A stretch of DNA of 64,000 bases, taken from contig JAPZUD010000004.1 of NCBI GenBank assembly GCA_027533425.1, forward strand, positions 62,001-126,000, written 5' to 3'. Below are positions 33,794-37,261 of the stretch, in pieces. Below the pieces are notes generated by a model. That model saw nothing but the letters and a program-made list of their open reading frames with translations, was not told where the DNA came from and made no database searches. The stretch's first letter is position 1; each line of letters starts with the position of its first letter. Origin of the DNA: Beijerinckiaceae bacterium (GTDB lineage Bacteria; Pseudomonadota; Alphaproteobacteria; Rhizobiales; Beijerinckiaceae). The position numbers and the translations under genes are program-made.

Positions 33794-33844
33794 AAAAAGC
33801 CGCCGGCAGCGATCTCCTCGGGACGAGGAGGGCTGGCCGGCGGC
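33794..33844 (-). terminator. Regulated intrinsic terminator upstream of nrtA
   Basis: Minus strand: GCCGCCGGC(C)AGC pairs with GCTGCCGGCGGC, enclosing an inner CTCCTCG-TCC-CGAGGAG hairpin, then TTTTTCATTT. It lies 38 nt before the nrtA start and overlaps hairpin P2, making it the attenuator of the operon. Confidence 0.88.
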
Positions 33845-33897
33845 GTTGCCGAATGCCCGTTCGGGCGAAAACTGACTTCAAGCCGTCATTGGCTTGA
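33794..33897 (-). ncRNA. ANTAR-target leader RNA of the nas operon
   Basis: Read on the minus strand, P1 (33897-33878) is UCAAGCC-AAUGAC-GGCUUGA. P2 (33851-33838) is CGGC-AACGCC-GCCG. Both have six-base loops with A at position 1 and G at position 4, the signature bound by ANTAR proteins such as NasT. A GCCC-GAAC-GGGC mini-hairpin sits in the 26-nt linker. The 3' arm of P2 is part of the 5' arm of the terminator at 33794-33844, so P2 and the terminator exclude each other. This predicts antitermination when NasT is free. Confidence 0.85.
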
Positions 33898-35826: not shown

Positions 35827-35999
35827 GCGCGCGGGGGCCTTTCACATTGTGCAGTGCGATATGGTGGCATGGATCGCGGGGGGATCAACCGAAAATTTGC
35901 CGGGACGTTCTTCCCTTTGCCTGTGCGAACGCGTCATATGCCTGCATCCGCCGGGCTTGCCCGGGTGTATTCCCCCTGTCGGCCCAAGCCGAGGACGAG

Positions 36000-36551
36000 A
36001 TGACGAACGACCCTGTCGGAACCGATCTGGCAACCTGCCTGCGTGACATCGCGCTGGGCCGGGCCGATGCGTTCCGGCGCCTGTACGAGGCGGAGGCTGG
36101 CCGGATGCTGGGCATCGCGCTGCGAATCCTGAAACGCCGGTCCCTCGCGGAGGAGGCGGTCCATGATGCCTTTGTCAGCATCTGGAACCGCGCGGCCAGC
36201 TATGATGCCCGGCTTGGCAGCCCGCGCGGCTGGATCCACACAATTGTCCGGAATCGCGCGCTGAATATCCTGCGCGGCGAGGCCCGGACCGAGCTCACCG
36301 ATTCGCTTGAACCGCTCGACATCGCCTCCGGGGACGAGAACCCCGAGGAGGCGGTCGGGCGCCTGTCCGATGCCGAAGCGCTCAGGCACTGCCTTGACCG
36401 GCTCGAGACGGCACCGCGCCACGCCGTCGTGCTCGCCTATGTCGAGGGGCTGAGCCATGGCGAGATCGCCGAACGGTTGCGGATCCCGCTCGGCACCATC
36501 AAGAGCCGGATCCGGCGGTCGTTGCTCGCGCTGAAGGAGTGCCTCGGATGA
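36000..36551 (+). CDS. ECF-family RNA polymerase sigma factor
   Basis: A 183-residue sigma-70-family protein with only regions 2 and 4. Region 2 includes AEEAVHDAFVSIWNRAASYD and WIHTIVRNRALNILR. Region 4 has the HTH VEGLSHGEIAERLRIPLGTIKSRIRRSL. The ATG at 36000 follows GAGGA; open sequence upstream is not protein-like. It overlaps the next gene by 4 bp (ATGA), which encodes an RskA-like anti-sigma factor, so this is a SigK-type pair. The signal and regulon are unknown. Confidence 0.92.
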   Translation: MTNDPVGTDLATCLRDIALGRADAFRRLYEAEAGRMLGIALRILKRRSLAEEAVHDAFVSIWNRAASYDARLGSPRGWIHTIVRNRALNILRGEARTELTDSLEPLDIASGDENPEEAVGRLSDAEALRHCLDRLETAPRHAVVLAYVEGLSHGEIAERLRIPLGTIKSRIRRSLLALKECLG

Positions 36552-37261
36552 GTCTCTCGCGGGATGATATGGCTCTTGCGGGAGAATTCGTGCTCGGCGT
36601 GCTGGACCGTGGCGAGCGGGCGGCACTCCAGCGGCGCATCCAGCGCGACCCAGCCTTTGCCGCGGCGGTGGCGGATTGGCAGCGGCATTTTGCAGGGCTG
36701 GATGCCAGTGCACCGGAAGTCACGCCTTCGCCCGAACTCTGGTCACGAATCGAGGCCAGCCGCCTTGCCTTCAGGGCGGAACGCTCCGCACGGCGTGAGC
36801 CGTCCCGGCTGGCTGGCTTCTGGGATTCACTCCGCCTCTGGCGGCCGCTCGCACTGGCCGGAACGCTGGCCTCGCTGGTTCTGGGCGTCGCCCTGCTGAT
36901 GCGCATCGCGGCCGGACCGGAAGCGCCGCAACTCGTCGCGGTCCTGTCGGCGCCGGATGGCCGTGCGGCTGCAGTGGTCCATGCCTATGCCAACGGAACT
37001 GTCCAGCTCATCCCGCTCGACACGATTCCCGTGCCCGACGGGCGGGTTCTCGAGGTTTGGACGCTGCAGACCCGCGAGCAGGGCCCTGTCTCGTTGGCCC
37101 GGATGGATCGCGCCCGCACGATCCGGCTGGAACTCAGGGGGCTCTCGCCGGCGCAGGTCGGCCATCTGTTCGAGATCACGCTTGAACCACAGGGCGGCTC
37201 GCCCACCGGCAAGCCCACGGGGCCGATCCTGATGAAGGGGCTCGCGGCAACCCGGCTCTGA
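36548..37261 (+). CDS. Anti-sigma factor, RskA/anti-sigma-K family
   Basis: 237 residues. The N-terminal cytoplasmic anti-sigma region has LAGEFVLGVLDRGERAALQRRIQRDP (typical of anti-sigma-K proteins; first 20 residues of this run are most conserved). One transmembrane helix is at about 101-121 (LALAGTLASLVLGVALLM). The periplasmic RskA domain has the conserved VLEVWTLQ and the C-terminal FEITLEPQGGSPTGKPTGPI. No zinc-binding HxxxCxxC is present. It should hold the upstream sigma factor at the membrane until released by proteolysis. Confidence 0.9.
   Translation: MSLSRDDMALAGEFVLGVLDRGERAALQRRIQRDPAFAAAVADWQRHFAGLDASAPEVTPSPELWSRIEASRLAFRAERSARREPSRLAGFWDSLRLWRPLALAGTLASLVLGVALLMRIAAGPEAPQLVAVLSAPDGRAAAVVHAYANGTVQLIPLDTIPVPDGRVLEVWTLQTREQGPVSLARMDRARTIRLELRGLSPAQVGHLFEITLEPQGGSPTGKPTGPILMKGLAATRL

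Follow-up and report, generated by a model that had tools for sequence, protein, structure and literature searches.

The closest described counterparts of the leader analysed here are the nitrate-responsive leaders of Paracoccus denitrificans and Klebsiella oxytoca and the leaders bound by EutV in Enterococcus faecalis. In P. denitrificans, NasT binds the leader of nasA in the presence of nitrate and is reported to form oligomers once it is free of NasS (PMC3795266). A chromosomal mutation of hairpin HI of this leader left the organism without growth on nitrate; when HII was mutated, expression on nitrate stayed almost the same (PMC5424462). For the K. oxytoca regulator NasR, SELEX experiments yielded the criterion that the hexaloop is closed by a C-G pair (PMC7496416). 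The spacing of the two hairpins is known to be limiting for EutV: induction is impaired when the eutP linker measures 3 or 14 nt (PMC3369931), and antitermination in vitro is lost when a linker is extended by 20 nt (PMC8934654). Based on the EutV crystal structure, the authors of the latter study proposed a model in which a dimer binds the hairpins P1 and P2 in succession and not at once (PMC8934654).

Here we describe a leader in the window, by which we mean the whole analysed stretch of 64,000 nucleotides from a Beijerinckiaceae bacterium. This leader very probably is a NasST antitermination leader, that is, a NasT-responsive transcription attenuator of the nitrate-assimilation operon nrtA-nrtB-ATPase-nirB. 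Such a role had been proposed by the first-pass annotation of this DNA, and it is supported by the anatomy of the leader, its neighbouring genes, its conservation, its co-occurrence with the ANTAR gene, and its absence from an ANTAR-less genome of the same genus. A switch of this sort is to be expected. The useful aspect is the natural variation in the length of the linker between P1 and P2, in a hairpin within this linker, and in the number of hairpins.

Anatomy of the leader

Both hexaloops that had been read from the sequence, each with A at the first and G at the fourth position (A1/G4), are present (Table 1), and P1 is conserved across the window's genus. The P2 stem consists of four Watson-Crick pairs (33851-33838) and one U-G pair. 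The linker indeed contains a hairpin of its own, as had been stated. The 5' arm of the terminator (33844-33836) spans three bases of the P2 loop and the entire 3' arm of P2, so that the P2 and terminator folds are mutually exclusive; the sharing of this arm had been noticed before and holds. Set against the criteria for dual-hairpin ANTAR targets, the leader has stems of at least 3 bp, A1/G4 in both loops, C-G closing pairs and a terminator that excludes P2, and an ANTAR protein is encoded in the genome.

With a minimum free energy of -55.3 kcal/mol, the terminator fold lies far below the most favourable one in which P1 and P2 are enforced (-42.5 kcal/mol). P2 therefore needs help to win, as would be expected for a protein-stabilised antiterminator. 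The same difference in stability also suits another explanation, according to which the element is an ordinary attenuator or a terminator of read-through from nasTS, whose A1/G4 loops are incidental.

Table 1. Features of the leader and of the adjoining genes in the window.
Feature	Position	Strand	Remarks
nasT	35826-35224	-	REC + ANTAR; PF03861 70.4 bits, PF00072 38.6 bits, both above cut-off
nasS-like nitrate sensor gene	35227-34064	-	NMT1_2 229 bits; named by family and position
Sigma-54-like -24/-12 promoter	33922-33907	-	TGGCACGAAAGGTGCT; GG-N10-GC at 33921-33908
P1 hairpin	33897-33878	-	UCAAGCC[AAUGAC]GGCUUGA; 7-bp stem, A1/G4 hexaloop, C-G closing pair
P1-P2 linker	33877-33853	-	25 nt; 26 nt if P2 is counted as 4 bp
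Linker hairpin	33866-33855	-	GCCC-GAAC-GGGC; 2 nt from P2
P2 antiterminator	33852-33837	-	UCGGC[AACGCC]GCCGG; A1/G4 hexaloop, C-G closing pair
Intrinsic terminator	33844-33794	-	9-bp outer stem GCCGCCGGC/GCCGGCGGC, inner 7-bp hairpin, UUUUU
nrtA-like nitrate-binding protein gene	33756-32443	-	First gene of the presumed operon; NMT1_2 334.9 bits; named by family and context
nrtB-like permease gene	32442-31480	-	TIGR01183, above cut-off
ABC ATPase frame		-	Between nrtB and nirB; recognised by inspection of the listed ORFs
nirB, nitrite reductase large subunit	30789-28207	-	TIGR02374, above cut-off; listed ORF, the true start may lie inside

Regulator genes and target range

The genes nasT and nasS lie directly upstream of the leader, in agreement with the initial reading, and overlap each other. 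All 60 loci with a local NasT have a nasS-type match that begins no more than 400 nt from where nasT ends. Divergently from nasT, the stretch 35847-37261 on the plus strand holds an ECF sigma factor gene and an adjoining ORF that, judging from its position and appearance, may encode the anti-sigma factor.

No ANTAR protein other than NasT was found in the window's genome. A search of this genome with R1, a covariance model described below, returned the leader and then nothing above 20.5 bits among the 150 of 3246 first-look candidates that were scored, a fraction at which weaker targets could be missed; each of the five next-best matches falls inside an open frame of 2.2-3.1 kb. Judged from these matches, the nrtA leader seems to be the sole NasT target in the genome.

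Chance expectation and RNA models

A composite of two C-G-closed A1/G4 hexaloop hairpins within 60 nt and a terminator overlapping the second one occurs once in the window, compared with 0.03 times per window in 30 dinucleotide shuffles searched on both strands. When the terminator is disregarded, two such hairpin pairs are found, as against 0.5 in the shuffled sequences. Among the relatives, the 74 non-redundant upstream regions (of 114), which are mutually related and were picked by their nrtA gene and so do not amount to 74 independent tests, contain 104 A1/G4 hairpins of at least 4 bp versus 4.35 in shuffles, an excess of about 24-fold. Other C-G-closed hexaloops in the same regions are no more frequent than by chance (78 versus 75.7), which argues against the loops being incidental to an ordinary attenuator or read-through terminator.

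A search with Rfam yielded nothing at gathering level in the window and nothing plausible at E-values up to 10 between 33600 and 34100, the matches near the leader being of the kind expected by chance only. Our own model R1, built from 14 leaders, assigns 59.1 bits to the leader of the window, a score that is circular because the window is part of the seed. Of the genus leaders that R1 matched and that are not in its seed, L083 and L084 nearly duplicate rows of the seed, and L089 (38.7 bits) does not. Eleven genomes of the genus possess NasT together with the nrtA orthologue; in nine of them R1 hits the nrtA leader, and in G003 and G016 it misses it. In G001 NasT is present and no R1 match was obtained near it. 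Background matches of the model reach 27-29 bits, and one of them (27.9 bits) stems from a genome without an ANTAR match.

Co-occurrence of leader and ANTAR gene

We compared 97 nrtA loci (the window plus 80 plus 16), two of which (L001 and L086) apparently represent one contig. A strict parse, defined as P1, P2 and terminator with one stem mismatch allowed, succeeded in 74 of them, one parse (L017) being doubtful. All 74 belong to the 86 loci with an ANTAR gene in the genome, and none to the 11 loci without (Fisher p 1.4e-8, relatedness ignored). The ANTAR status of the 86 loci derives from NasT in the fetched DNA (60), a check of the genome (15), or an ANTAR gene elsewhere in the genome (11). 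In the last 11 loci a leader was parsed and the fetched DNA lacked NasT, and all 11 of these genomes possess an ANTAR gene outside the fetched DNA. The ANTAR-less genomes are mostly draft MAGs, in which the absence of a gene is uncertain. Terminators recognised by a loose criterion of -12 kcal/mol were present in 77 of the 80 ANTAR-bearing loci tested (of 86) and in 5 of the 11 ANTAR-less ones.

A member of the window's genus, G010, is rated 100% complete and encodes an nrtA orthologue with 84% identity, but has no ANTAR match. Upstream of its nrtA we found a sigma-54-like site and GC-rich hairpins, with no parsed P1-P2 pair and no terminator by the -12 kcal/mol criterion. The lack of the leader in this ANTAR-less genome suggests that the cis element and its regulator are kept or lost together. 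The lack of a parsed leader in all 11 ANTAR-less loci, the excess of A1/G4 loops and the promoter-like site just before P1 (see below) make an ordinary attenuator or a terminator of nasTS read-through a most improbable explanation, and we retain the NasT-responsive leader.

Twelve of the 86 ANTAR-bearing loci remained unparsed. Looser scans recovered four of them (L013, L019, L045, and L070), and eight were not cleanly found (L011, L028, L039, L048, L071, L092, L093, and L096). In L011, L039, and L048, where nasT is present, the first hairpin has no clear A1/G4 hexaloop and P2 is intact. Leaders of Bosea contain a C-C mismatch below the closing pair of P1 and are missed by a scan for perfect stems. 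A class-wide search for nrtA at an E-value of 1e-160 had hits in 19 of 385 genomes and added 17 loci, of which five (L125, L126, L131, L137, and L140) showed no A1/G4 hairpin upstream of nrtA in our scan and two (L135 and L136) only one.

Putative promoter and proposed mechanism

A strict -24/-12 site lies within 45 nt upstream of P1 in 46 of the 74 parsed leaders, in 37 of these 46 at a distance of 7-15 nt; downstream of P1, the sequences of the 74 contain two. By the strict pattern no site was detected in the other 28, which include the Bosea leaders as a near miss by eye. Transcription from sigma-54 promoters usually starts about 12 nt after the GC element, so the RNA of the window is predicted to begin at about 33897, which would place P1 at its very 5' end.

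Under nitrogen limitation, this putative sigma-54 promoter, probably driven by NtrC, would, judging from the sequence, start the RNA at P1. As long as nitrate is lacking, NasS would hold NasT in the manner described in published work on NasST, the terminator would form, and RNA polymerase would stop about 100 nt into the transcript. In the presence of nitrate, freed NasT could engage the A1/G4 loops of P1 and P2 and keep P2 folded. Given the overlap seen in the leader, the terminator could not form once P2 is folded, and the operon would presumably be read. That nitrate would free NasT and that NasT would block termination, as the first-pass annotation had put it, is extrapolated from published work on Paracoccus and Bradyrhizobium. 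The linker hairpin would be a conserved but subsidiary element of this switch in the lineage, and its most likely task would be to hold P1 close to P2.

Linker length and linker hairpin

The window's linker of 25-26 nt compares with 5-12 nt in the eut leaders of E. faecalis and 2-25 nt in a curation of actinobacterial RNAs. Linker lengths were tabulated for 72 leaders, that is, the 74 parsed ones without the doubtful L017 and the duplicate L086. They were at most 10 nt in 16 leaders and at least 18 nt in 56, with none between 11 and 17 nt. These are parser lengths: two of the 16 short linkers (L053 and L061) are misparsed long ones with a false P2 inside the linker hairpin, and in four of the 56 long ones (L010, L036, L037, and L038) the parser chose the distal hairpin over an A1/G4 hairpin that lies closer to P2. 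A MAFFT alignment across linker lengths misplaced the 3' arm of P1 in the short-linker rows and was left out of the counts. In a tree of NasT the linker classes cluster, the bootstrap not having settled.

In this single sequence, the window's linker hairpin does not reach significance by itself (p 0.083 versus mononucleotide shuffles), and the case for it therefore rests on the relatives. In all 11 loci of the genus tested, the folded part of the linker ends 0-3 nt before P2, the predicted fold being longer and branched in L092. The linkers of the genus have a mean z of -1.82, versus -0.67 in control segments, and 3 of 11 are individually below p 0.05. The outermost pair of the hairpin, G-C in the window, is A-U in L082 and L085, a compensatory change, and G-U in L083 and L084. 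Otherwise its sequence varies by species, and in L086, L087, L089, L090, and L091 a different hairpin occupies the same place; since L086, L087, and L089 are out of register here, pairs were not counted on the genus alignment. The signal is stronger in Rhizobiaceae, where 24 linkers have a mean z of -2.61 (control -0.58), 20 of them below 0.05, and where four of the seven pairs of the linker hairpin show changes on both sides with 91.7% of the cells paired. A conserved linker hairpin near P2 is thus supported in two groups, the window's genus and Rhizobiaceae.

One possible function, to which we assign slightly less than an even chance, is that of a structural spacer that folds the long linker so that a single NasT dimer or oligomer can serve both P1 and P2. 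The gap in parser lengths between 11 and 17 nt, the conservation of the hairpin in the linkers of both groups, the structure seen in the linkers of L128 (47 nt) and L129 (62 nt), and the spacing limit of EutV are all in line with such a spacer. Conversely, the 10 distinct Bosea linkers (18-22 nt) barely exceed the controls in stability (mean z -0.57 versus -0.47), and L047 and L133 lack a hairpin in their long linkers (20 and 23 nt), so that a rule by which the hairpin is kept wherever the linker is long had to be rejected. Nor do the linkers contain clearly fewer unpaired bases than shuffled ones (genus 12.6 versus 10.0; Rhizobiaceae 9.2 versus 9.5, hardly a difference). A more compact folding of long linkers than expected by chance is accordingly unsupported, and the earlier suggestion that the hairpin spaces or strains P1 and P2 found no backing in either group. 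L128 and L129, whose linkers are predicted to form closed domains, belong to one genus with L134, which has a linker of 10 nt.

Leaders with three or more hairpins

At least three A1/G4 hairpins are present in 9 of the 74 non-redundant upstream regions (L010, L037, L038, L070, L130, L132, and L139, and also L041 and L047, in which the extra hairpin is outside the P1-P2 stretch); L036 and L133 likewise contain three or more when one mismatch is allowed. L130 lacks a clear U tract in the stretch examined. In position, the window's linker hairpin corresponds to the middle A1/G4 hairpin of some of these relatives, and on this ground it may be a changed member of such an array.

It could also be a decayed third NasT hairpin from an ancestral A1/G4 array, with no present role. 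Its location agrees with decay: at 0-3 nt before P2 in the genus it takes the place that P1 has in relatives with short linkers, and L010, L036, L037, L038, and L070 carry one A1/G4 hairpin at the distal place and another at the middle one. The compensatory changes described above, affecting one pair in the genus and four of seven in Rhizobiaceae, preserve the pairing and argue for a hairpin that has been kept, and we consider decay without a role unlikely. In the part of the literature covered by our search, neither a linker hairpin nor hairpin arrays were found described for ANTAR targets; PMC4679880, considered as an account of multiple-hairpin targets, turned out to be unrelated.

Predicted loop-binding residues of NasT

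NasT was aligned with EutV (6wsh), whose RNA contacts were taken from PMC8934654, with residue numbering matched at an offset of two. Of the seven loop-binding residues of EutV, NasT keeps five (Arg142, Lys143, Lys149, Glu160, and Met172) and has Arg in place of Lys147. The seventh position, corresponding to EutV Tyr164, which stacks on G4 of the loop (PMC8934654), is His167 in NasT. Among the 60 NasT proteins of the locus set this residue is Tyr in 39, Phe in 19, and His in two, namely the window and L001, which itself is in the genus; within the genus, counting the window, His occurs in 9 of 12 proteins and Tyr in three. Since the loops still are of the A1/G4 type, the His ring, though that of neither Tyr nor Phe, presumably could stack on G4 in the way of EutV Tyr164. 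By eye, the P2-like loop of L096 (genome G046) seems to start with G instead of A, and the NasT of this genome also has His at the G4-facing place. The kind of leader is changed neither by the linker hairpin nor by His167.

Comparison with known ANTAR systems

When linker lengths, arrays and loop-binding residues are viewed jointly, NasT leaders of Alphaproteobacteria might not be strictly two-hairpin elements, but comprise close pairs with linkers of 1-10 nt, long linkers with a conserved middle hairpin, and arrays of at least three hairpins. The middle hairpin of the window would then be a converted array member that lets oligomeric NasT work over a spacing too wide for EutV, accompanied in most of the genus by the exchange of Tyr for His at the G4-facing residue. 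We put this joint reading forward as a speculative one that is rather doubtful as a whole. Irrespective of it, the natural variants, with 1-nt linkers, folded linkers of 25-62 nt, or three and more hairpins, are suited for tests of the loop distance and of the role of the middle hairpin.

The known systems agree with the locus of the window to different degrees. The nasA leader of P. denitrificans resembles it in that nasT and nasS are situated directly upstream and a non-coding leader with hairpins precedes the nas operon (PMC3795266, PMC5424462). There, however, the first gene is nasA and not nrtA, and the likeness is one of arrangement. The nasF leader of K. oxytoca, the target of NasR, likewise has two hairpins whose A1/G4 hexaloops are closed by C-G, an overlap of P2 and terminator, and nitrate as the signal (PMC7496416, PMC3369936), but NasR itself senses nitrate, whereas a separate NasS would do so here. 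The EutV leaders of E. faecalis (eutP and others) have in common with the window the dual A1/G4 hairpin, a P2 that is exclusive with the terminator, and a REC-ANTAR protein as regulator (PMC3369931, PMC8934654); they differ in their linkers, which measure 5-12 nt and fail when longer, in contrast to the 25-26 nt with a hairpin of its own found here.
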